A stretch of DNA of 64,000 nt. It comes from Gemmatimonadaceae bacterium (GTDB lineage: Bacteria > Gemmatimonadota > Gemmatimonadetes > Gemmatimonadales > Gemmatimonadaceae). Location of the stretch: assembly GCA_036496605.1 (NCBI GenBank), contig DASXKV010000054.1, positions 124,001 through 188,000 on the forward strand, given 5' to 3'. Of this stretch, positions 39,222-51,475 are shown one piece after another. The notes below the pieces were generated by a model. That model had not been told where the DNA came from, searched no databases, and worked only from the letters and a program-made list of their open reading frames with translations. Made by a program: the position numbers and the translations under genes. Numbering within the stretch: the stretch's first letter is position 1; each line of letters starts with the position of its first letter.

Positions 39222-40388
39222 ATGATCAATCGACGCGCCCTATTCGCCGTCTCCTGCGTGAGTCTCTTCACCTTCGGCATCGTCCTCACGACGCTCGGGG
39301 CGGTGCTGCCGTCGATCATCGAGCGCTTCGGCATCGACAAGACCGCTGCCGGGTCGCTGTTTCTGCTCAACACGTTCGGGATCGTCATCGGCTCGATCGT
39401 CTTTGGACCGATCGTCGACCGGAACGGCTACAAGGAGATGCTCGTCGTTTCGACGGCGCTCATTATTCTCGGCCTCGAGGCGATCGCGTTCGCGCCATCG
39501 ATGAACTGGCTGCGGGCAGCAGTGCTGATGACGGGCTTTGGCGCCGGCATCATCAACGGCGGCGCCAATGCCCTCGTGGCCGACATCAGTGTCGACGGGC
39601 GGACCGCTGGCTTGAGCAAGCTCCACGTCTTCTTCGGCGCCGGCGCCGTCGGCGTGCCATTCGCGTTAGGCATCCTCCTCGGCAGATTCACATATTCTAT
39701 ATTGATCGCTGCCGTCGGCGCGCTCTGTGTCATTCCGCTCGTGATCACCGCTGTCCCGCACTTTCCGACGCCAAAGCAGGCGCAGGGATTCCCGATCGCG
39801 ACGGCGAAGGCGCTGCTCCGCGATCCGGTGCTGCTGACATTTGGCGTCATGCTCTTTCTCGAGAGCGGGATGGAGATCACCGTCGGCGGCTGGACGGCGA
39901 CCTTTTTCAAGGAAGAGCTGCTGATCAGCGATCAGCGCGCGCTGGTGTACCTCGCACTGTACTGGTCTGGCCTCATGGTTGGCCGAATAGCCCTGAGCGC
40001 AGTCGTCCGTCGCGTGACGGCGTCGAGAGTGCTCGCGGGTGGCATCACGATCGCCTTCATCGCCGCATGGATCGTCATCACGACGCACGATCCGTCATTC
40101 GCCGCGCTCGGGGTCTTTCTCCTTGGCCTGGGCTTCTCGGCCACGTTTCCGGTGGTGCTCGGCCTCATCGCGGATCGGCATGTCGCACTCTCTGGTACCG
40201 CTTTCAGCGTTGCGATGGTCATGGCGCTCACCGGCGGAATGCTGATGCCGTATTTGACGGGTGTGTTAGGCACGGCGTACGGACTGCGCGGCTCCTTCCT
40301 GATCGTTCCGGCCGCGCTGCTGGGGCTCGCGACACTGCTCGGCGTGGCGAGCTCACGCCTTGTCCGCCACCCTCGGCCAGCCGCGTAG
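39222..40388 (+). CDS. MFS sugar transporter (FHS/FucP-like)
   Basis: The 388-residue protein has 12 hydrophobic segments, starting LFAVSCVSLFTFGIVLTTLG. Motifs AGSLFLLNTFGIVIGSIVFGPIVDRNGYK and GAGIINGGANALVADIS, plus LHVFFGAGAVGVPFALG, match the fucose/glucose/galactose:H+ symporters. With a GH29 fucosidase and a galactokinase-like gene 2-5 kb away it may import L-fucose, galactose or glucose, though no operon link exists: it lies on the opposite strand. Confidence 0.88.
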   Translation: MINRRALFAVSCVSLFTFGIVLTTLGAVLPSIIERFGIDKTAAGSLFLLNTFGIVIGSIVFGPIVDRNGYKEMLVVSTALIILGLEAIAFAPSMNWLRAAVLMTGFGAGIINGGANALVADISVDGRTAGLSKLHVFFGAGAVGVPFALGILLGRFTYSILIAAVGALCVIPLVITAVPHFPTPKQAQGFPIATAKALLRDPVLLTFGVMLFLESGMEITVGGWTATFFKEELLISDQRALVYLALYWSGLMVGRIALSAVVRRVTASRVLAGGITIAFIAAWIVITTHDPSFAALGVFLLGLGFSATFPVVLGLIADRHVALSGTAFSVAMVMALTGGMLMPYLTGVLGTAYGLRGSFLIVPAALLGLATLLGVASSRLVRHPRPAA

Positions 40389-40467
40389 GGCATCGAATTC
40401 ATTAGGCGATTCTTGCGCATCGGCTTGCGAGTCCATAAGACTTAATTGTCTCAGGAAAGAGGCCGAG

Positions 40468-41181
40468 ATGCGTAGTCGTGTAATTGTCGCAATCGTCGCT
40501 CTGGTCGTGCCCGCGGCGCTGAGCGCTCAGCGCATTCCCCTGCCCATTGGGCGACGGCCGGCGCGACCGGAGCCCCTGCCGCCGCAACCCGGACCCATCG
40601 CCAACGAGTTGGCCTATAAGCGCTGGCGGATTTCGGTCGAGAGCTACCCGATCGTCAGCTATTTCCAGGCATCGGGCTTTCCATCATGGACAACGCTCGG
40701 CATGGGAAGTCGCGCCGATTACATGGTCAATCGGTATGTCTCGGCGACGCTGGACATGACGTCTTCGTTCATCGGCGGCCCCAATATAGTGAACACCGTC
40801 GAGGTGGGTACGCGCGCCCATCCCGAATGGGCAGAGCACAAGATTTACCCGTATATCGATCTCCGCGTCGGATACATCGCGTCGTACAACCGGCGATTGG
40901 GCTCGATCGACAATAGCTACGCCGATCCGGTCGCCACGGGCAGCTACGGCGCGCCGTACAGCCATGGCTTCGGCGCGATCGGCGGCGGCGGACTGGAGTA
41001 TGCGCTGACGCATTCGTGGTCGCTCACCACGGGCGCGTCGGTGGTGCAGAGCCGGATGACGCCACACGACCTGTCCAGTCCGGATCTCAATAGGCCATAC
41101 TCCATGACGGCGATCCGGTACACTTTCGGCGTCCGCTTCAATCCGGTCACGGTGATCAGACAAGGTGGCGACGCACGCTGA
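40468..41181 (+). CDS. Outer-membrane beta-barrel-like protein, first of a tandem pair
   Basis: ATG 40468, preceded by AGGAAAGAGG, gives 237 residues with a signal peptide (VIVAIVALVVPAALSAQR). A Pro/Arg/Leu-rich region of about 30 residues follows, then alternating amphipathic strands (WRISVESYPIVSYF, YMVNRYVSATLDMTSSF, YPYIDLRVGYIASYN, YALTHSWSLTTGASVVQ) ending in an aromatic-rich strand IRYTFGVRFNP. This fits an 8-stranded outer-membrane barrel. The next gene is a clear paralogue. Confidence 0.78.
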   Translation: MRSRVIVAIVALVVPAALSAQRIPLPIGRRPARPEPLPPQPGPIANELAYKRWRISVESYPIVSYFQASGFPSWTTLGMGSRADYMVNRYVSATLDMTSSFIGGPNIVNTVEVGTRAHPEWAEHKIYPYIDLRVGYIASYNRRLGSIDNSYADPVATGSYGAPYSHGFGAIGGGGLEYALTHSWSLTTGASVVQSRMTPHDLSSPDLNRPYSMTAIRYTFGVRFNPVTVIRQGGDAR

Positions 41182-41200
41182 TGAGAGGATTCTCATAAAT

Positions 41201-41234
41201 GGCCGGTAGCTTTTGCTACCGGCCGTTTTCTTTT
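41201..41234 (+). terminator. Intrinsic terminator between the two barrel genes
   Basis: GGCCGGTAGC (41201-41210) pairs with GCTACCGGCC (41215-41224) around a TTTT loop, followed by GTTTTCTTTT (41225-41234). This is a textbook terminator 20 bases after the first barrel gene stop. It suggests the second barrel gene has its own promoter in the short gap before 41301. Confidence 0.93.
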
Positions 41235-41300
41235 GGCGCACTGTATCGTCCTCGAGCGGGCCCTGTTCTTGCGACCGGGCACTCGTTTGGCGAGGTTACG

Positions 41301-42071
41301 ATGTTCCGAATGTCCACTCGGAGCTCCCCCATGCGTGCTGCCATTGCGATGTTCTCACTTGTGTTGCCCGCGGTATTGAGCGCGCAGCGCATCGCCGTTC
41401 CCCTGCCAGTGACGACGCCTCGGCCGGCGCGCCCGGCGCCGCTCCCACCGCAGCCGACGCCCATTGCGCAGGACCTCGCGTACAGGCGACTCCGGCTATC
41501 GGTAGAGAGTTATCCGATGGTGAGCAGTTTCAGCGCGCCGGGCTATGCTAGCGACGGCCGCTTCGCGAGCTGGAGGAGCTTCGGCACCGGCACTCGAGCG
41601 GACTACCGCCTAACGCGCTACCTGTCCGCAACTCTGGACATGACATCGTCCTTTCTTGGAGGCCCCGCATTGGTGGAAACGGCCGAAGTCGGTACGCGGG
41701 TTGGCCGTCCGCGCGAGGGAGGTCGATTCTATCCCTTTGCGGATCTGCGCGCCGGCTACATCGCCGCCTTCACCAAAAATGCGGGGTCGATCGTGGGCGT
41801 TTATGGCGGCCCGACTCCCCAGGGCTCGTACGTGGCGAGCTATAGCCATGGGATCGGAGGCATCGGTGGCGCGGGATTCGAGTACGCCTTCACGCGAATG
41901 TTGTCGCTGACCACGGAGCTCTCGGTAATGCAGAGTGGGATGCAGACGCACGCGTTCGAGGGTCCGATCATCACCGACCGCCACTTCGGGATGACGACGA
42001 TTCGCTATACGCTCGGGTTGCGATTCAATCCCGTTCGATACGTCCGGACGCCGGGAGAGGATACTCGTTAG
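41301..42071 (+). CDS. Outer-membrane beta-barrel-like protein, second of a tandem pair
   Basis: ATG 41301 (GAGG 5 bases before it) gives 256 residues with signal (AAIAMFSLVLPAVLSAQR). It shares blocks with its neighbour: PARPAPLPPQPTPIAQDLAY, RLSVESYPMVSSF, RYLSATLDMTSSFLGGP, YPFADLRAGYIAAF, YSHGIGGIGGAGFEYAFTR and TTIRYTLGLRFNPV. The conserved Pro-rich segment before the barrel may lie in the periplasm. Two copies in tandem suggest recent duplication with divergent loops. Confidence 0.78.
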   Translation: MFRMSTRSSPMRAAIAMFSLVLPAVLSAQRIAVPLPVTTPRPARPAPLPPQPTPIAQDLAYRRLRLSVESYPMVSSFSAPGYASDGRFASWRSFGTGTRADYRLTRYLSATLDMTSSFLGGPALVETAEVGTRVGRPREGGRFYPFADLRAGYIAAFTKNAGSIVGVYGGPTPQGSYVASYSHGIGGIGGAGFEYAFTRMLSLTTELSVMQSGMQTHAFEGPIITDRHFGMTTIRYTLGLRFNPVRYVRTPGEDTR

Positions 42072-42106: not shown

Positions 42107-43429
42107 CTAGTGCCTGCGACGATCCGTCTGCAGGACGAAAACGCGGTCAGGCTCATCCCCCGTCGCGACGGGGAGTGTCAGCACGAGCGCATTCTGCGTT
42201 TGCGAAACATCCACAGGTTCGTCGGTCGCGAGCATCGACGCGCGGACGACGTGGGCACCGAAGCTCGGGAGCGAGAGTACTCGATCCGGCCAGCTCAGCA
42301 CGTGGACGAATACCGAGTCACCGCGCTGCGTCGTGACGCCCCATTCGCGTGGCGGAATCGGCCCGCCTCGCGTCCCATAGATCGAAGCTCCGTACCGCGA
42401 GAGCCAATCGCCTAACGCCTTCAAGCGCTCGGCGGCTTCGGGTTGGATTGTCCCATCGGGGCGTGGGCCGATGTTGAGCAGCAGGTTCGCGTCTCTCCCC
42501 GCAGCACGCACGAGATAGCCGATCAGCTCGCGCGGCGACTTCCAGCTCGTGTCGGTGATGTTGAACCCCCACGAACCGTTCATCGTCAACGACGTCTCGA
42601 GCGGCAGCGCGCCGATTTGCTTCGTGTTGAAGCCGGCGGTATTGGCGCCAGGCAGATCCTGCTCGAAGGTCTGCACATCTTCGCCGGGTAACGGCAGCTG
42701 ATGATGATTCGGCACGATGAGCGCCGCCGGCTGGAGCGAATGGATCAACGCATAGGTTCGGTCCAGCCGCCAATTGGCGTCCGGCTTGTCCCACATGCCG
42801 TCGAACCAGATGCCGCCGATCGGACCGTAGTTCGTGAGCAGCTCGGTGAGCTGGCGATCCATGAAATCCAGATAGCGGTTCCAGTCACCGTTCTCCGGAC
42901 GGCCCGTTGAAAGACCCGTGCGTCCGCGCGGCCAATAATCGGGGTGATGCCAGTCGAGTTGAGAATAGTAGAAAAAGAGCTTGATGCCCTGCCGGCGGCA
43001 TTCCTCCGCCAGCTCCCTGAGCGGATCACGTGCGAACGGCGTCCAGTCGACGATGTTGTAGCGCGTCGCGTGCGTCGCGAACATCGCGAAGCCGTCGTGA
43101 TGGCGACTCGTGATCGTGATGTACCGAGCGCCGGCGCGCTTCGCGATCGAGACCCACTCGTGCGCGTTGAACTTGACCGGATTGAAGGTCGACGCCAACC
43201 ACTCGTATCGGTCGACGGTAATGCCGCGGTTCTGCATCACCCACTCGCCCTGGCCGAGGAGGCTGTACACACCCCAATGGATGAACATGCCGAATTTGGC
43301 ATCGCGAAACCATGCGCGCGCCGCGGACCGCTCGGGAGGGATGTCGTTAGGTGCGACTTGCGCCCGCACGGTCGAGCGGGTGAGGACGAACAGCGCAACC
43401 GTGAGAAAGACGCGTTTTACGCTCGGCAT
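42107..43429 (-). CDS. Alpha-L-fucosidase, GH29, last gene of the glycan operon
   Basis: A 440-residue protein with a signal peptide (VFLTVALFVLTRSTVRAQ) and the GH29 signature: FGMFIHWGVYSLLGQGEWVM, YITITSRHHDGFAMFAT, LFFYYSQLDWHHPDYW, and the probable nucleophile Asp210 in GPIGGIWFDGMWDKP. The C-terminus is a beta-sandwich. It would remove terminal L-fucose from glycans outside the cytoplasm. It follows the kinase gene by 24 bases on the same strand. Confidence 0.93.
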   Translation of the reverse strand: MPSVKRVFLTVALFVLTRSTVRAQVAPNDIPPERSAARAWFRDAKFGMFIHWGVYSLLGQGEWVMQNRGITVDRYEWLASTFNPVKFNAHEWVSIAKRAGARYITITSRHHDGFAMFATHATRYNIVDWTPFARDPLRELAEECRRQGIKLFFYYSQLDWHHPDYWPRGRTGLSTGRPENGDWNRYLDFMDRQLTELLTNYGPIGGIWFDGMWDKPDANWRLDRTYALIHSLQPAALIVPNHHQLPLPGEDVQTFEQDLPGANTAGFNTKQIGALPLETSLTMNGSWGFNITDTSWKSPRELIGYLVRAAGRDANLLLNIGPRPDGTIQPEAAERLKALGDWLSRYGASIYGTRGGPIPPREWGVTTQRGDSVFVHVLSWPDRVLSLPSFGAHVVRASMLATDEPVDVSQTQNALVLTLPVATGDEPDRVFVLQTDRRRH

Positions 43430-43453: not shown

Positions 43454-44773
43454 CTATGCAAGCGCACTCGCAGGGGGCCCTGCATGCGTGATGAAGGCGC
43501 TCGCGTCGGCGGCCCGGCTCGGAAACGCGCTCGTGTACTGCTCGAGCCACCGGCGGACAAAATCGTCTGCGTCCGACGCACGCACCAGAGCGTAGACGCT
43601 GCCGCCGAACCCGGCGCCGAACGCCGAGGCGGCGACGGCTCCCGTCTCGCGCGCCATGCGCGCCAGGGCGATCGTCTCCGGGATCTGGTTCGAGAGTAAT
43701 CGCGCCGCCCCTGCCTGCGACTCGTCGACAAGCGCACCGAGCCGATCGAGATCGCTCGTTGCGAGTGCGTCACCTGCCTCCTGAACGAGACGTGATTCGT
43801 TATTGAACTGCTCGACACGGTCGAGCACTTCGCGCCGGCTCCCCAACATCTCGCGGAAATCGGCGACGCCGCCCGGCGCCTCTTCCAGTGCGGCGCTGAG
43901 TGTTGCGGCGTGGCTGTGGGTTGCCTCCCGCCATACGTTGAGCGCCTGGGCGGCGAGCGCCGAAGCGCGGTTGTACCGCTCGAGGGCGCCACCCGCTTTG
44001 GCCGCCACAACACCGCTCGACACCACAGCCAACACGTGGTCGTTCGGCAACGGCACCATGCGGTCGCAGCGAACTGGCAGGTAGCTGTATTGCACGAGCG
44101 CGCCCGGCCGAGAACAGAGAATCGCCGTATGATCCTGACTTCCGCCCTGAGTCCCGACGCCGGCATCGCCAGCAAGCCTTCCATAGCCGGACCCGTTCTC
44201 GACGGCGCCCAGGTAACCGGCGAGCTCCTCGACGCCACGAATCGCAGCCTGATATTCCAGACGTGCTTCGAGATCGTTCGCATCGGAGAGCGCGAGGAAG
44301 GTCGCCACCATGAGTGCACTCGAGCTACTTAACCCTGCTGCGGAAGGCAAATCGCTCGCAAACGCGAGATCGACTCCACGACGCGTTCCGGGAAAGTTCC
44401 GCGCAACGCGACGACTTACCGTCAGCGGGTAGTTCGACCAGTGACCGCGCGGCGGCACGAGATCGGTATCGAGCTCGTGCTCGACGCTGTCGCCGGAATT
44501 CGCGTCGCGAAAGCGAAGTCGCCGATCGCTCGGCGCGGCGGCGACCGCGAAGCCACGCTCCACCGCGCAGACGAGGCTTGGACCGCCCGCGTAATCGGTG
44601 TGCTTGCCGAGGAACTCGATGCGACCGGGCACCCACCAGATGCGCGCGTCACGTGCTTCCGGCCCGAGGGCATCGAGCGCGCGATCGAACAGTGCTGCTT
44701 TCGACTCGAGCGCACCGCTGGTCAGGCCGATCGCGCCCAGTCGTAACGCAATTGCTTTGACAATTGAGCTCAC
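43454..44773 (-). CDS. Galactokinase-like GHMP kinase
   Basis: Starting at a GTG (44773) that overlaps the stop of the coiled-coil gene (GTGA), the 439-residue protein has the three GHMP motifs: PGRIEFLGKHTDYAGG, LPSAAGLSSSSALMV and AFGAGFGGSVYALV. In classical galactokinases motif 1 reads GEHTDY; here the Glu that contacts the sugar is Lys, so the sugar may not be galactose. Next to a nucleotidyltransferase domain, it most likely makes a sugar-1-phosphate for a nucleotide-sugar salvage route. The frame upstream of 44773 only runs antiphase through the coiled-coil gene. Confidence 0.88.
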   Translation of the reverse strand: MSSIVKAIALRLGAIGLTSGALESKAALFDRALDALGPEARDARIWWVPGRIEFLGKHTDYAGGPSLVCAVERGFAVAAAPSDRRLRFRDANSGDSVEHELDTDLVPPRGHWSNYPLTVSRRVARNFPGTRRGVDLAFASDLPSAAGLSSSSALMVATFLALSDANDLEARLEYQAAIRGVEELAGYLGAVENGSGYGRLAGDAGVGTQGGSQDHTAILCSRPGALVQYSYLPVRCDRMVPLPNDHVLAVVSSGVVAAKAGGALERYNRASALAAQALNVWREATHSHAATLSAALEEAPGGVADFREMLGSRREVLDRVEQFNNESRLVQEAGDALATSDLDRLGALVDESQAGAARLLSNQIPETIALARMARETGAVAASAFGAGFGGSVYALVRASDADDFVRRWLEQYTSAFPSRAADASAFITHAGPPASALA

Positions 44774-44946
44774 AGCTTCGCGAGAAGCTTGCGTTGGTTC
44801 GCGAGAATCTGATCGAGTTTCTTTTGATTGTTGGCAATGCGATCGAGCTTCTTCTGATTCGCCTCGATACGTTTCTGATTCGCGAGGATTTTTCGCTGGT
44901 TGGCGAGAATCAGTTTCTGGTTCGCGACGGTCGCATCCTGGGCCAT
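44770..44946 (-). CDS. 58-residue repetitive coiled-coil microprotein coupled to the kinase gene
   Basis: ATG 44946 follows a strong AAAGGAG site (spacing 5-6 bases). The product is built of near-identical heptads such as ILANQRK, ILANQKR, IEANQKK and ILANQRK: Ile/Leu at position a (13, 20, 27, 34, 37, 44, 47, 54) and Asn at position d (16, 23, 30, 40, 50), always followed by Gln. Two three-residue insertions after Leu34 and Leu44 break the register. There is no signal or membrane segment. Its stop overlaps the kinase start by 4 bases, so translation is coupled. An oligomerisation partner or scaffold for the kinase or nucleotidyltransferase is possible, but the function is unknown. Confidence 0.85.
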   Translation of the reverse strand: MAQDATVANQKLILANQRKILANQKRIEANQKKLDRIANNQKKLDQILANQRKLLAKL

Positions 44947-44994
44947 GACGTTCTCCTTTCAGTTCAGGGTAGTCTCGTTTATGAACTGCCTGGC

Positions 44995-47595
44995 CTAGAG
45001 GCGAACCGGAACGCCACGAAGCCGGGCGGTCACCTCCGGAATATCGCCGCGATGCGAGAGATCGAGCACCGCTGCTCTCACCGGAAGTGCGCGAAGGCGC
45101 ATACCAAGGTGCTCGATCGCCCATTGTATCGCATTCGGAAGCTCAACCTCACTTCGTGCTGACGGCGCGACCCGCCGGCACGCTTCGAGAATTGCCGGCG
45201 TCAGAAGCCAGACATTCATGCTCACGGCGGCATCCGGACCAAAGGCGCGCTCCGTTTCCGCATCCGGCTTCTCGACGACTCGGCGTAAGTAGCCGTCATC
45301 GTCGACGTCGAGCAGTGCGTAACGCGCTATGCGCTCCGGGGGAATGTTGCCGTCGCGAATGAGGGCGTCGCGCTCGAAGGCAGGCAGCGCCGGCTCGCGT
45401 TCGGCGCGGAGCAGTCGCAACACCTCGGGTGGATAATAATTGTCGGCATTGAGGACGACAAACGCGTCCTCACCAATGAAGCCTGAAGCAGCGAGAAGGG
45501 CGTCGGCAGTGCCTAACGGCTTCTCCTGGATCGCGAAGTTCACTCGAACGCGGCTCGGCGGATTCTTCTCGTAATACTCGCGCACGACGCCGTGCTCCGG
45601 GCCGATGACGAGGCAGGCCTCGGTAAATCCCGCATCGGCGAGCGCGCTGAGGACGTAATCCAGAAAAGGCCGATCGATCGCGATCATCGCCTTGAGTCCG
45701 GTGTCGGCGACGGCGGCCTGCTCACGGCTCAGTTGCGCCCGGTCGTCGGCGACGCGCATTCGCGTGCCCAGGCCGCGGGCGAGGATGACGGCCTTGGTCG
45801 GTGCCGAGGACATCGCCTTCTCCGCGGTGCCGTCCGAGCGCGACCAGAGTCGCGGCAGGAGCCTAACGAGGTAGATGCCGCTTGCGACGAAGAGGACGAT
45901 CCAGATCGCGCCCTGCGCCAACCGCCCGTACAACAAGCTCCCTGACCCAAAGAGTGCGGCGTACACGAAGGTGCAGCCGGCCACCCACGCAAGCAGCGAT
46001 TGCGCGAGGGAATCGGGCGACGGCCCGAGGCCGCCGCGCTCGCGGACCTCGCGCCAGCCCGGGCCTGGTGGTCGCACGAGTGCGTAGAAGCGCTCAAGGG
46101 TCACCGCATCCGTCGGCTCGGTGAGGTACGTCGCCACAACCCAGCTCACGGTCGTGACGATAATCGTCACGAGGAGCACCGTGGTCGCATCGATCGTTGC
46201 ACCGGCCTTCTGAGCCACGAAGAACGCAATGGACACGATGAACGAGCTCGCCATTGCGGCGATCTCGCTCCACGCATTGATCCGCCACCAGAACCAGCGA
46301 AGGAGATAGATCAATCCAGTTCCGGCACCAATCGACATGAGCAGATTGAAGCTCTGCTGCGCCGACGTGAGCACGAACGTCACGCCGGCGGCCGCCAGCA
46401 TGAGCAAACCAGTAATGATTCGGCCGACGAACACGTAGTGCCGCTCGTCCGCGCTCGGCCGCACGAAGCGTCGATAGAAATCGTGGACGATGTACGACGT
46501 GCCCCAATTCAAGTGCGTCGACAGCGTCGAGACGTATGCGGCCAGCATCCCCGCGATCATCACACCGAGGAATCCCGTCGGCAGAAACTTGAGCATTGCC
46601 GAATACGCCATGTCGTGACCAATGAGATGACGATCGACGTACGGGAACGTGGCCGCGATATCTGAGAGGTTTGGGAAAACGATCATCGACGAGAGTGCGA
46701 CGATGATCCACGGCCACGGACGCAACGCGTAGTGCATCACGGTGAAGAAGAGCGTACCAGACAACGCGTCGCGCTCGCTCTTGGCCGCCAGCATGCGCTG
46801 GGCGATGTAACTCCCTCCCCCTGGCTCGGCGCCGGGATACCAGACCGACCACCATTGCACGGTGAGCGGAATGACGAGCAGCGACGCGGTGAGCTTCCAG
46901 TCGCCGAAATCGGGAAGGACGTTGAGCGTCCGTTCCGGAATCTTGTGAAAGAGTCCGGTCAGGCCACCCACTTCGGGCTGCTTCACGGCAAAGTAGGCGG
47001 CGGCAAACGAGCCGGTCATCGCAACACCGAATTGAATCAGATCCGTCACCATCACGCCCCACAGTCCCGACGTCGCCGCAAAGGCGATGTTGAGTACTGT
47101 GCAAACGGCGAGCGTCTGCATCATTGGCCAGCCGAGGACCACGTTCGCGATCTTGACGGCGGCGAGGTTCACTGCCGCCATGATCATGCAATTGAAGAAG
47201 AGACCCAGATACAGCGCGCGGAAACCACGAACGAACGTTGCTGGCCGTCCGGAATAGCGGATTTCGTAAAATTCGAGATCGGTGAGCACGCGCGACCGGC
47301 GCCAGAGGCGCGCGTAGAAGAAAACCGTCGCCATTCCGGTGAGGAGAAACGCCCACCATGCCCAGTTGTTCGCGACGCCGCCCTCGCGGACAAAGTTCGT
47401 GACGAGATTCGGCGTGTCGGTACTGAAGGTCGTCGCGACCATCGACACGCCGATGAGCCACCATGGCGCCGCGCGCCCCGAGGTGAAGAACTCGGCGGTG
47501 CTCTTCCCAGCGCGACGGGCAAGCAGGATCGCCGGTGTGAACGACACGGCGATCGACACGAGGACAATCAGCCAGTCGACCCTGGTGGGCTTCAT
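44995..47595 (-). CDS. Sodium/solute symporter (SSS family) fused to a sugar nucleotidyltransferase
   Basis: The 866-residue frame starts at ATG 47595, overlapping the preceding stop (ATGA). Residues 1 to about 590 form a multi-helix SSS transporter (WLIVLVSIAVSFTPAILLARR, FFTSGRAAPWWLIGVSMVATT, SAMLKFLPTGFLGVMIAGML). Residues about 595-866 form a nucleotidyltransferase domain with AVILARGLGTRMR, GLKAMIAIDRPFLDYVLSAL, EKPLGTADALLAA and FVVLNADNYYP. No stop codon separates them. An internal ATG at 45813 preceded by GGAGAAGG could yield the 272-residue enzyme alone. Substrate sugar and nucleotide are not determined; the domain resembles glucose-1-phosphate nucleotidyltransferases. Confidence 0.85.
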   Translation of the reverse strand: MKPTRVDWLIVLVSIAVSFTPAILLARRAGKSTAEFFTSGRAAPWWLIGVSMVATTFSTDTPNLVTNFVREGGVANNWAWWAFLLTGMATVFFYARLWRRSRVLTDLEFYEIRYSGRPATFVRGFRALYLGLFFNCMIMAAVNLAAVKIANVVLGWPMMQTLAVCTVLNIAFAATSGLWGVMVTDLIQFGVAMTGSFAAAYFAVKQPEVGGLTGLFHKIPERTLNVLPDFGDWKLTASLLVIPLTVQWWSVWYPGAEPGGGSYIAQRMLAAKSERDALSGTLFFTVMHYALRPWPWIIVALSSMIVFPNLSDIAATFPYVDRHLIGHDMAYSAMLKFLPTGFLGVMIAGMLAAYVSTLSTHLNWGTSYIVHDFYRRFVRPSADERHYVFVGRIITGLLMLAAAGVTFVLTSAQQSFNLLMSIGAGTGLIYLLRWFWWRINAWSEIAAMASSFIVSIAFFVAQKAGATIDATTVLLVTIIVTTVSWVVATYLTEPTDAVTLERFYALVRPPGPGWREVRERGGLGPSPDSLAQSLLAWVAGCTFVYAALFGSGSLLYGRLAQGAIWIVLFVASGIYLVRLLPRLWSRSDGTAEKAMSSAPTKAVILARGLGTRMRVADDRAQLSREQAAVADTGLKAMIAIDRPFLDYVLSALADAGFTEACLVIGPEHGVVREYYEKNPPSRVRVNFAIQEKPLGTADALLAASGFIGEDAFVVLNADNYYPPEVLRLLRAEREPALPAFERDALIRDGNIPPERIARYALLDVDDDGYLRRVVEKPDAETERAFGPDAAVSMNVWLLTPAILEACRRVAPSARSEVELPNAIQWAIEHLGMRLRALPVRAAVLDLSHRGDIPEVTARLRGVPVRL

Positions 47596-49619
47596 GCCGT
47601 CGGCTCGGCCTGGAGGGTCAACACTTCGAACGGCGCGAGGAGCACGTCGTGCTCGGTGCCGGCGCGCAACCGCACCGGCGCGCGGCCGCTGTCGCGGAAC
47701 CACGGGCTGCGCGCGACATATTGACGAGCACCTTCCGGCGGCAGCTCGAACGCGTGCTCGACGTCGAGCCCGAAGCGCTGCTGCACGCCATTCGGGTTTC
47801 GCAATGTGATAATTCCGCGCCGCGGCGACCACGACGCCCAACCGTAGACCTGAAGCTGCTTCGGGTCGCCGCCTAACCAGTGCGTGTCGACGAGCGTCGC
47901 GGCGTTGCCGCGGGACCACTTTGCGGCCTCGGCGAGGAAGGCCCACTGCGTGTTCGCGAGCGTCGGCGTGACGTACATCTCCTGGAGCTGAGTCCCTGTG
48001 CCGAAGTAGGAGTGTACCTCGTCGACGAAGTCACGATACGGATCGGCCGCGAGCTTCTTCGCGTAGCGCGCGTACACGAGGCCGTGCAGCATCAGCGAAT
48101 TCAGTGGATAGAGTGCGCCGCGCCTAACGACGTGCTCGTAGGTGTCGCCGTCGCGGTAGGTGATCCACTGCTGACGATCCGTGCCGACGCCCGCAAAGTC
48201 GTGGTCCTCGCCACCGCGCCAGATCGAATCGGCGTAGCGCAGCCAGAAGGGCGACGGATAGGTCCCCGTCGTCAGGTTGATGTAGATATCCGGCTTCTCG
48301 GTGCGCAGTGATTCGATGAGATGAATCGCGGCGTCGAAGTCGCTGTCGAACGTACTCCCCGGAAATGCCCTCGAGGCATTGCCGGTGCCATCGAACTTGA
48401 ACTGATTGACGCCGAACTCGCGTATCATCCGAAAGCAGGTCTCGCGGAATCGCTCGTAGTACTTCGGCCCGGAGAGGGCGAAACCACCCTCGTTCGTCTC
48501 GAACCCCTGCTGCTGCGCGAACTCGAGGCGCTTCTTCTTGGGATCGCCGTATCCGCCCCAGGGTGACATCCAGATGCCGGGCCCCGCGCCGTACTCCGCG
48601 GCCGCTGTGCGCACGCGCTTGAATCCATCGGGGAAGCCGGCGTGGAAGCTCCAGAGCGTGTGCGGGTCATCCCAGCCGTCATCGAAGAGAAAGGAGTCGA
48701 GGACGACGCCGCGCTGCCTAACAAGTTGGTCACCGAAGGCCTGGATCGCGCCGATCGCCTCGGATTCCGAGTACTGCGAGAAATAGCCGATGTCGTACCA
48801 GGAGTTGTAATGCAGGAAGGTGCGGTACGGATGCGCACGCTCGCGTTCGACGTACTCGAGGAAGTCACGGCGCATCTGGCCCGGCCGTGTCGTCCCGATC
48901 ACCGACGAAACAGTGAATGGCGACTCCGGGCGGAGCGGCAGCTCTCTCGCGAGGACGCAGCGAACCCGGTCGCCGTCGACCGTACTCTCGGAGAGAGGAT
49001 GCTCCAAGCCGACGAACCATTGGCCGATCGCTACAGGACTTCCCTTCACGGTGCCGGTGACTTGCGCGCCGTGTGCGTGGAAATCGACGAGCGTGATTTC
49101 ACGTACGGGGACGGGCGCTCCAAGCGCCCGGAAAGTGATTTCCTGTCGGACATACCGCGCACCATCTCGCAGCTCGGCGCGCCAGACCGCTCGCAATCGG
49201 CGATCGGGATCTTCGAGGCTGACCGTAAGGCGGTGTCCACTGACGCGCTCGGCGAATCGCGAGGCCTTCGGCGAGGGCACGAGCGTCTCCATTGAGGGTG
49301 CGCCGACAATTCGCATGCGGGTGGAGTCGAGTCTCGTCCCGTCGGCGAAAGCAAGAATGAAGAGCTGTTCGGGCAGCGTTAGGCGAACGTTCGCATCGCG
49401 ATCAACGATGTCGCGCGGGCGCAAGGCCCCGCCGTCCGTGGTCCAGCTTGCGTCGATCGCGTCGTTCTCGATGGTGAGCGTGTCGCTCGGCGGGCGCAGG
49501 ATGCCCTGTATGATTCGGCTCGTCGAGTCAGCTCCCGACAGGCCAAGACTTGCGCCAGCGAGCGCCGAACGCTCGACGAATTCTCGTCGCGTGATCTTGC
49601 CGCCGGAGTCCTGGGTCAT
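47592..49619 (-). CDS. Tat-exported glycosidase of alpha-galactosidase-like (clan GH-D) type
   Basis: ATG 49619 gives 675 residues with a twin-arginine signal (KITRREFVERSALAGASLGLS); a TTG at 49673 overlapping the previous stop is an alternative start. A beta-sandwich (residues about 40-270) precedes a TIM-barrel with FLHYNSWYDIGYFSQYSE, VVLDSFLFDDGWDDPHTLW, WMSPWGGYGDPKKKR, VNQFKFDGTGN (candidate nucleophile Asp) and YINLTTGTYPSPFWLRYAD with WRGGEDHDFAG. A C-terminal beta domain closes it. The DDGWDD and KFDGTG pair resembles GH27/GH36/GH31-like enzymes; exact family is not certain. Confidence 0.75.
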   Translation of the reverse strand: MTQDSGGKITRREFVERSALAGASLGLSGADSTSRIIQGILRPPSDTLTIENDAIDASWTTDGGALRPRDIVDRDANVRLTLPEQLFILAFADGTRLDSTRMRIVGAPSMETLVPSPKASRFAERVSGHRLTVSLEDPDRRLRAVWRAELRDGARYVRQEITFRALGAPVPVREITLVDFHAHGAQVTGTVKGSPVAIGQWFVGLEHPLSESTVDGDRVRCVLARELPLRPESPFTVSSVIGTTRPGQMRRDFLEYVERERAHPYRTFLHYNSWYDIGYFSQYSESEAIGAIQAFGDQLVRQRGVVLDSFLFDDGWDDPHTLWSFHAGFPDGFKRVRTAAAEYGAGPGIWMSPWGGYGDPKKKRLEFAQQQGFETNEGGFALSGPKYYERFRETCFRMIREFGVNQFKFDGTGNASRAFPGSTFDSDFDAAIHLIESLRTEKPDIYINLTTGTYPSPFWLRYADSIWRGGEDHDFAGVGTDRQQWITYRDGDTYEHVVRRGALYPLNSLMLHGLVYARYAKKLAADPYRDFVDEVHSYFGTGTQLQEMYVTPTLANTQWAFLAEAAKWSRGNAATLVDTHWLGGDPKQLQVYGWASWSPRRGIITLRNPNGVQQRFGLDVEHAFELPPEGARQYVARSPWFRDSGRAPVRLRAGTEHDVLLAPFEVLTLQAEPTA

Positions 49620-49669
49620 CGTCGCGAAGAAGTTGGCGGGGAAACCGGCCGCCGGCCAGCCTACCAGCG

Positions 49670-51475
49670 TCAACGGATAGGTACGGGTACACTGAGTGCC
49701 GACACCCCGTTCTCATCGAAGCTCTCGACCGCGACCCAGTACGCCTGGCCAACGGTGAGGGCGCGCAAATCGAGGGTTGTGCCTTCATCGGCGAACCGCT
49801 GGTAGGTCTGGTACAGCTTCGACGGCGCAATGCCCCAGCGGATGTTGTAGCCGACCACGTCGGGAACAGCGTGCCAGGTGATGGTCGCGTCCCGTTCGTC
49901 GGCGGCGCGGCGCGCCGCTAGGCGTCCGGGCGTCGGCGGTTCAGGGCCGGTGCCGTTGCCGAATACGCGAATGTCGCTGATCGCCAGGTTCGCCGCGCCG
50001 ACGTGGATGTGCTCGTAGCGGACAAATCGCGTGCGCGCTGGACTTGGCAGCTCGATGTACGCGTTCGGCCGGTCGCGTCGTTCCTTCGACAGGTCGGCCA
50101 CCGTTCGCCAGTGCGCACCATCGCTCGAGATCTTCAGCCTGAACTGGGTGTAGACGGTCGAGTCGGTGCCGTAGAGTCCCGATTTATAATCTGCGTAGTT
50201 CACCTGGATCGCCTTCACGTCGAGCCGGCGTCCGAGATCGATCGTCAGCCATTCGCCCGGGCGATTCGTACGCGCGACCCAGAACGTGCGCGGATTCTCG
50301 TCCGTAACGGCGCTCGCCGGGAAGCTGTCGCGCGCCGAAGACGCCGTGACTCGGCTGCGATAAGACAGGAGCATCCAGCCCGTAAATAGCGCGTCGCTCC
50401 GCTGCCAACGACTCGTCGGCAGCCAGTGCGGAAAGTCGCCGAAGCGCGTATCGACGTAGAGCTGCCCATCAGCGTCGAAACCTGCCGGATGAAGGCCAAT
50501 GCGGCGCTCGAAATTCCAATTCACGCCAATCCAGGGCGTGCCGGTGTTCCACCAGTTGCCGTAGACGTCCTGGAACGTGTTGCCGTGCCCAGCGCCCTGG
50601 ACGAATCCGCCAGGCTTGTAGGCGATCGGATTGTAAGGTGCGTACGTGAACGGACCCGTTGGCTCGTCGGCGACGTAGGTGCCAGTTGAGTAGACGTTAT
50701 ACTCCGTGCCTGGGGCGCCGTACTGTAGATAATATCGCCCGCCGTGCTTCGTCATCCAGGCGCCTTCGATGAACGGCTTGATCGTCGTGTCGCGATGATC
50801 GCGGCCGAACCGCTCCCACCCGTGCTTTTCCGGAACGAGGCCAAAGAGCCAGTGCGGAGTGCCCTTGTACGCAAGCTGCTTGGTCTTGTCGAGCTCGATC
50901 ACGTCCAGCGGGTAGACATTCGACGAGTTCCAGTAGAGAAACCAGCGGTCGGTGTCCTCGTCGTAGAAGAACTGCGGGTCCCAGGGCCCGGGCTGCACCG
51001 AGTCTGGTTTCGCGAACGTCGCCGCTTCGGTCTCGCGTGCCATCGGCAACCAGGGCAATAAGCGATTGTAAAACTCCACGCGTCCTGTCGCCGGTTGCGT
51101 GAGCATCAGAATCGGCAAGGGACGCGTCGTGGCCGGCAGGAGATAGATCGTATCGCGGACCGACAGAACCGCCGGCGCGACGACATCGGTGATCGGCCAG
51201 CGTGTCGGCGTGATGTGACGCCAGCTGCCGAGGTCGCGGGACGTCCAGTAGCCGTCGCCGAGCGTTTCGAAGAGGTAGTACGCGCCGCGCTGGACCACGA
51301 TCACCGGGTCTGCACCGGAGCGATACGAGATTCCTTCGTTGTGCTGCTCGAAGTTGTACCGGTAATCGATGTCGATCGGGTTCGCGTACGTACGCTGCGG
51401 CGACTGCGCCGCGACGCGCACTGCAGCACACGCGGCCAGTCCCACGACAGTGAGACAAATACCTAACGACTTCAG
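49670..51475 (-). CDS. GH43-like glycosidase with discoidin (F5/8C) and FN3 domains
   Basis: The likely start is a CTG at 51475 that overlaps the GMC stop (CTGA), giving 601 residues with a signal peptide (LGICLTVVGLAACAAVRVAAQ). The five-bladed propeller shows GH43 acids at RSGADPVIVVQRGAYYLF, GPWDPQFFYDEDTDRWFLYW and FIEGAWMTKHGGRYYLQYGA. A discoidin-like domain follows (NRPGEWLTIDLGRRLDVKAI; TRFVRYEHIHVGAANLAISD), then an FN3 domain (ATITWHAVPDVVGYNIRWG). It probably removes arabinofuranosyl or xylosyl units, or galactose, with the discoidin domain binding glycan. Confidence 0.85.
   Translation of the reverse strand: MKSLGICLTVVGLAACAAVRVAAQSPQRTYANPIDIDYRYNFEQHNEGISYRSGADPVIVVQRGAYYLFETLGDGYWTSRDLGSWRHITPTRWPITDVVAPAVLSVRDTIYLLPATTRPLPILMLTQPATGRVEFYNRLLPWLPMARETEAATFAKPDSVQPGPWDPQFFYDEDTDRWFLYWNSSNVYPLDVIELDKTKQLAYKGTPHWLFGLVPEKHGWERFGRDHRDTTIKPFIEGAWMTKHGGRYYLQYGAPGTEYNVYSTGTYVADEPTGPFTYAPYNPIAYKPGGFVQGAGHGNTFQDVYGNWWNTGTPWIGVNWNFERRIGLHPAGFDADGQLYVDTRFGDFPHWLPTSRWQRSDALFTGWMLLSYRSRVTASSARDSFPASAVTDENPRTFWVARTNRPGEWLTIDLGRRLDVKAIQVNYADYKSGLYGTDSTVYTQFRLKISSDGAHWRTVADLSKERRDRPNAYIELPSPARTRFVRYEHIHVGAANLAISDIRVFGNGTGPEPPTPGRLAARRAADERDATITWHAVPDVVGYNIRWGIAPSKLYQTYQRFADEGTTLDLRALTVGQAYWVAVESFDENGVSALSVPVPIR

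Follow-up and report, generated by a model that had tools for sequence, protein, structure and literature searches.

The locus examined here raises the question of whether a reading frame of only 58 codons, lodged between two enzyme genes of a minus-strand operon, is a gene in its own right and, if so, whether its product serves those enzymes or something else. The window, that is, the whole stretch of DNA analysed, comprises 64,000 nucleotides of a Gemmatimonadaceae genome. Its minus-strand operon runs in the order probable glycoside hydrolase, symporter-nucleotidyltransferase fusion, short frame, kinase and alpha-L-fucosidase; we refer to the product of the short frame as NQ. The relevant features are as follows.

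42107-43429, minus strand: alpha-L-fucosidase, operon context
43454-44773, minus strand: galactokinase-type GHMP kinase, whose GTG start overlaps the NQ stop within GTGA
44770-44946, minus strand: NQ microprotein coding sequence, 58 aa, ATG start, heptads I-L-x-N-Q-x-x plus two decads
44774-44994, minus strand: inferred insertion of about 221 nt, which 11 relatives lack at this junction
44947-44994, minus strand: leader of 48 nt from the nucleotidyltransferase stop to the NQ ATG
44953-44959, minus strand: Shine-Dalgarno sequence AAAGGAG, 6 nt ahead of the NQ ATG
44995-47595, minus strand: single frame joining a sodium:solute symporter and a sugar-1-phosphate nucleotidyltransferase
47592-49673, minus strand: large probable glycoside hydrolase bearing a weak Tat-type signal, operon context

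The stop of the glycoside hydrolase-like gene overlaps the symporter start by 4 bp. The symporter-nucleotidyltransferase frame contains an internal ATG at 45813, preceded by GGAG, which could give the enzyme alone; the same-genus genome G001 aligns across the junction of the two parts in one frame, and in L086 and L098 they align as separate segments. At 40360-42071, on the plus strand, a tandem pair of genes encodes proteins of 273 and 290 aa that resemble each other and look secreted or outer-membrane-like.

Judged on its sequence features, the frame at 44770-44946 is a genuine microprotein gene. The earlier note had described a 58-residue frame opening with an ATG behind a strong Shine-Dalgarno sequence and overlapping a sugar kinase start by four bases, and each of these points was confirmed: the ribosome site is AAAGGAG at a 6-nt spacing, and a single GTGA contains both the NQ stop TGA (44772-44770) and the GTG at 44773 of a kinase that proved to be of the galactokinase-type GHMP family. 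Translational coupling of NQ to the kinase is plausible, because no clear Shine-Dalgarno sequence lies ahead of the kinase GTG. The translation, MAQDATVANQKLILANQRKILANQKRIEANQKKLDRIANNQKKLDQILANQRKLLAKL (58 aa), contains Asn-Gln dipeptides starting at residues 9, 16, 23, 30, 40 and 50, and the resulting spacings of 7, 7, 7, 10 and 10 were matched in regularity by none of 200,000 residue permutations. The repeats use differing synonymous codons (AAC/AAT and CAG/CAA) and TRF found no DNA tandem repeat at the gene, which together argue that it is not a young DNA repeat.

Searches of the usual reference collections returned little for this gene. No Pfam or NCBIfam model reached its cut-off for the protein (the Pfam matches to Myb_CC and Msl2-3 fell below cut-off and were ignored), Rfam has no family within the window, and a PDB sequence search gave no relative, the matches to designed peptides and nucleoporin p62 being generic coiled coils. 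PADLOC found no match to the window protein and weak matches in 2 of 14 relatives. The 48-nt leader showed neither a terminator nor a promoter signal above shuffles; a 7-bp inverted repeat, CAGTTCA...TGAACTG (44954-44990, minus strand), lies just before the ribosome site and may be due to chance. Third-position GC content is 69% in the NQ gene against 73-80% in its neighbours, a difference too small to prove foreign origin.

We collected the family of the protein, which amounts to about 27 standalone homologues and one fused domain. Only strong, inspected matches were counted, since weak ones (E about 1e-5 to 1e-3) are other repeat ORFs; those in G133, G567, G599, G408, G572, G620 and G000:C36 were set aside as unrelated repeats or unconfirmed. 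By this measure, the window's phylum has strong profile matches in 10 of 298 genomes (an eleventh, in G133, being among those set aside). The numbers are 6 of 297 for the phylum of G309 (Acidobacteriota), 7 of 193 for the class of G310, and 1 of 151 for the order to which a Methylococcaceae MAG belongs. NQ is present, too, in a Myxococcota-like MAG and on one viral contig; on the latter (L019:4001-4180) the gene accompanies a terminase-like gene and is closely related to that of the Methylococcaceae MAG, which suggests phage carriage. A tblastn search of plasmids and phages gave no NQ match, a weak negative given that the low-complexity filter probably masks the protein. The standalone proteins are 43-105 residues long and nearly all start with ATG after a purine-rich ribosome site. 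The window protein shares the features by which members are recognised, namely a short ATG ORF, heptads, Asn spacings of 7 and 10, and a ribosome site. Pairwise comparison gave dN 0.09 against dS 0.78 for L066 and L079, and dN 0.13 against dS of about 1.0 for the window protein and its nearest homologue, L014, the larger values being rough on a repeat alignment. This pattern indicates that the family is conserved under purifying selection, and by profile comparison it is also uncatalogued, lying outside all Pfam and NCBIfam models. Net charge ranges from -4 to +15, which argues against a common nucleic-acid or lipid role; since some members are acidic, nucleic-acid binding through basic charge was dismissed as a trait of the family.

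The repeat itself follows a consistent grammar. Across 26 proteins, the distances between successive Asn residues of N[QE] pairs were 7 (101 cases), 10 (21), 14 (10), 17 (2) and 5 (3), nearly all of them 7, 10 or a sum of these, so that the unit can be written as I-L-x-N-Q-x-x heptads broken by decads of the form L-x-x-[IVL]-L-x-N-Q; the two decads of the window protein are LDRIANNQ and LDQILANQ. Relative to the Asn, position N-3 is I, L, V, M or F in 90% of cases (I or V in 80%) and N+4 is so in 98%. The near-identical heptads described earlier thus stand as a heptad pattern rich in core Asn, but one that is interrupted twice by decads. The assignment of Ile/Leu to a and Asn to d also fits the sequence; however, position b (N-2) is usually Leu or Ile as well, with I, L, V, M or F in 82% of cases, and this hydrophobic b makes the register ambiguous between Ile at a with Asn at d and an alternative with Gln at a, Ile at d and Leu at e, and the assembly likewise. 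The Q-x-x-I within the repeats fits the Gln-at-a register, and that alternative would suit a larger bundle. Heptads of the form [I/V]xxNxxx with beta-branched residues at a, as expected of Asn-d trimeric coiled coils, recur with 7 as the dominant spacing, and the AlphaFold2 model of the window protein, a monomer model and silent on partners, gives the continuous helix such coiled coils require (residues 2-57, pLDDT 95.8). The window ORF carries neither an export signal nor a C-terminal membrane anchor, and in this respect does not qualify as a trimeric autotransporter adhesin.

The comparison that bears on the supposed kinase link comes from related genomes. Twenty of 41 genomes, the window's own among them, have a kinase orthologue, and the nucleotidyltransferase-kinase junction could be read in 11 relatives, one of which is the same-genus G001. 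The earlier note had named absence of the frame from close relatives that keep the neighbours as the observation that would tell against it, and this is what emerged for the kinase link: the NQ frame is absent between the two genes in 11 of 11 relatives, with both neighbours kept. In 10 of them the distance from the nucleotidyltransferase stop to the nearest kinase start is -4 to +37 bp (5 bp in G001), with a GTGA or ATGA overlap in four and a 1-bp TGATG overlap in one; in the eleventh, L096, no kinase start codon was found and the kinase domain follows directly. These short junctions indicate that about 221 nt (44774-44994) are present only in the window genome, and the flanking genes' 66-76% identity to those of G001 argues against an assembly mix-up. 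The simplest history would be that NQ was gained in the window lineage, into a junction whose coupling predates the microgene. Phylogenetically, on a short and repetitive alignment with weak deep branches, the window protein groups with L014 and L116 of the Acidobacteriota (support 88/81), and the clade enclosing it is otherwise all Acidobacteriota (84/91); it stands apart from the other homologues of its own phylum, most of which begin MA-x-A-[TS]-L/R. Having its nearest kin in the Acidobacteriota suggests horizontal gain, which we regard as likely, the donor being probably Acidobacteriota-like. Neither flanking repeats nor a transposase were seen near the window copy.

Beyond the window, gene neighborhoods offer a different set of associations, with no single partner common to all loci and no sugar kinase adjoining NQ at any other homologue locus. 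Within the window's phylum, a PadR regulator is convergent with and adjacent to NQ in seven loci, and an uncharacterised membrane protein with an LNGPWH motif lies near it in six, directly following NQ in L040 and L041. Such proteins (L037:6150-6740 and relatives, with the motif LNGPWH...HLAEHLVQAYQ) occur near NQ in two phyla, and those tested gave no Pfam or NCBIfam match. In the Acidobacteriota loci L064, L067, L108 and L117, NQ comes after TPR, UnbV and UnbU (RnfD-like) genes; it precedes or neighbours an NMT1/SsuA-like ABC transporter in L017, L065, L080 and L108, and a radical SAM and flavoenzyme pair is close by in L033, L064 and L106. At L081:9059-10255 (minus strand), a sigma-54 AAA+ activator begins with an NQ-like helix where its sensor domain would be, and the gene that comes next encodes a standalone NQ protein. 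The partner genes are single-copy, which would make chance adjacency unlikely, with loci counted regardless of shared descent. In the window genome there is a single UnbU cluster, which includes UnbV, TPR, radical SAM and flavoenzyme genes, and a single LNGPWH gene; each lies on a contig other than that of the window, with no NQ adjoining. A cluster at L120 (G000:C67:64500-76500) comprises radical SAM, halogenase-like flavoenzyme, UnbU, UnbV and TPR/FG-GAP genes, and this same set is found again near NQ genes of other genomes.

Taken together, the explanation we favour, at about even confidence, is that NQ is a cytosolic, self-associating coiled-coil module of the Asn-d type that serves as an accessory for oligomerisation or regulation, was gained, probably horizontally, at this locus and is not a kinase subunit. 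The protein would be cytosolic, lacking a signal peptide, and would form a single continuous helix; it would most likely self-associate as a parallel trimer that is anion-dependent or stabilised by a partner. Its service to other proteins is suggested by linkage to PadR, UnbV/UnbU, ABC transporter and LNGPWH genes and by the sigma-54 fusion. On insertion, the NQ stop would have re-formed the GTGA overlap, allowing kinase expression to continue. The analysis shows the reality of the family, its purifying selection, the presence of NQ at this junction in the window lineage alone and the neighbourhoods at other loci, whereas its oligomeric state, anion binding, regulatory role and donor are what we infer. 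A bolder version, in which NQ proteins form an undescribed family of mobile Asn-d/Gln microproteins with anion- or partner-gated folding that transport, biosynthetic and sigma-54 regulatory systems would use as plug-in switches of oligomerisation, is a tentative proposal that we think rather improbable as a whole.

Several alternatives bear on the same evidence. NQ might be a mobile or selfish microgene with no dedicated host function, a compact unit of Shine-Dalgarno sequence and ORF that does little harm and preserves operon coupling. Its occurrence in about 2-4% of genomes in the phylum and class samples, its absence from two same-genus genomes, its presence on the viral contig and its insertion into an existing junction would all suit such an element, but the strong purifying selection, a UnbU-NQ operon position conserved over long distances (L064, L067, L108, L117), the fusion to a sigma-54 activator and the lack of flanking repeats or a transposase near the window copy do not, and we consider it unlikely, if somewhat less so than the other alternatives. 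Slightly less probable still is a partnership with transcription regulators, in which the helix would form mixed coiled coils with an NQ-bearing activator or with PadR and tune their oligomerisation. The NQ-like activator N-terminus beside a standalone NQ gene and the seven PadR-adjacent loci point this way, yet there is only one fusion, PadR is convergent rather than co-transcribed, and the window NQ has no adjoining regulator.

The remaining readings are tied to the kinase or to the reality of the frame. That the galactokinase or nucleotidyltransferase has NQ as its dedicated small subunit is suggested by the operon position and GTGA overlap of NQ and is quite improbable, given that the two enzyme genes stay adjacent with no NQ in 11 relatives and that the other homologues are not beside sugar kinases. 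The coupling claimed earlier is supported at the level of GTGA and the lack of a clear kinase ribosome site; the specific kinase or nucleotidyltransferase link is not supported, and a conserved partnership appears largely refuted. We give even less credence to a leader-type cistron whose peptide is unimportant and whose translation only sets kinase expression; the very short, fully overlapping cistron and the lack of a clear Shine-Dalgarno sequence at the kinase GTG would fit, but conservation of the amino-acid sequence extends to monocistronic homologues at other loci, and in relatives the kinase is coupled straight to its upstream neighbour with no NQ. Finally, a spurious or low-complexity ORF is scarcely credible: weak profile matches did prove to be unrelated repeat ORFs, but the strong ones are short, start with ATG behind a ribosome site, show low dN/dS and follow the family's 7/10 grammar, and the artefact reading appears already refuted by the selection signal.

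On the favoured reading of an Asn-d coiled-coil module, the family would be of interest for several reasons. Asn-d layers are known as scattered elements of surface fibres and designed peptides, and NQ is a natural protein of little else. Its native consecutive decads, with ten residues over three turns, have the lowest periodicity said to be possible for a coiled coil, and it offers a compact test of whether Asn-d cores need bound anions or partners for stability. The family also illustrates how a microgene can be gained within an operon junction that is coupled, and it draws attention to an uncatalogued co-travelling gene set of UnbV/UnbU, TPR, radical SAM, flavoenzyme and ABC transporter genes.

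Among known systems, the PspA-PspF pair provides a coiled-coil regulator of a sigma-54 activator. What it would share with NQ is a helical protein's control over an activator that lacks a receiver domain, a likeness at the level of ideas; just one NQ-activator fusion was seen (L081). The phage family phrog_24169 of PHROG (45 residues, function unknown) matches 15 of 16 NQ proteins, with a best E of 2.7e-6, but its best stretch against the window protein is only 14 residues and may reflect repeat similarity, not descent. A further likeness is to trimeric coiled coils. The earlier note had considered Asn at d unusual, yet the [I/V]xxNxxx heptad is documented in anion-binding trimers (PMC4786415, PMC12933892): Asn at d with Ile or Val at a is an anion-holding core motif of trimeric coiled coils in PMC4786415, and the heptad is the chloride-site heptad of PMC12933892. 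PMC4786415, citing Hartmann et al. 2009 (PNAS), describes five Asn-d layers in the Actinobacillus OMP100 stalk, where a 3-residue insertion produces a decad. Read in the Asn-d register, NQ is like OMP100 in its successive heptads with Ile or Val at a and Asn at d and in decads that adjoin Asn-d layers, and the ten-residue steps of NQ match the published 'stammers'. OMP100 is a large surface fibre whose heptads lack a hydrophobic b, whereas NQ is a free protein of 43-105 residues with no export signal and, in that register, with Gln at e and mostly Leu or Ile at b. Counting against the favoured trimer, designed peptides with at least two Asn-d layers formed no trimer in solution (PMC12933892). 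Both [I/V]xxNxxx and Qxx[I/V]xxx, the signatures of the Asn-d and Gln-a chloride-binding trimers of that study, occur in most NQ repeats; in those trimers, which are peptides or fragments of fusion proteins, such layers number one to three, whereas the window NQ has up to six in a standalone bacterial microprotein.
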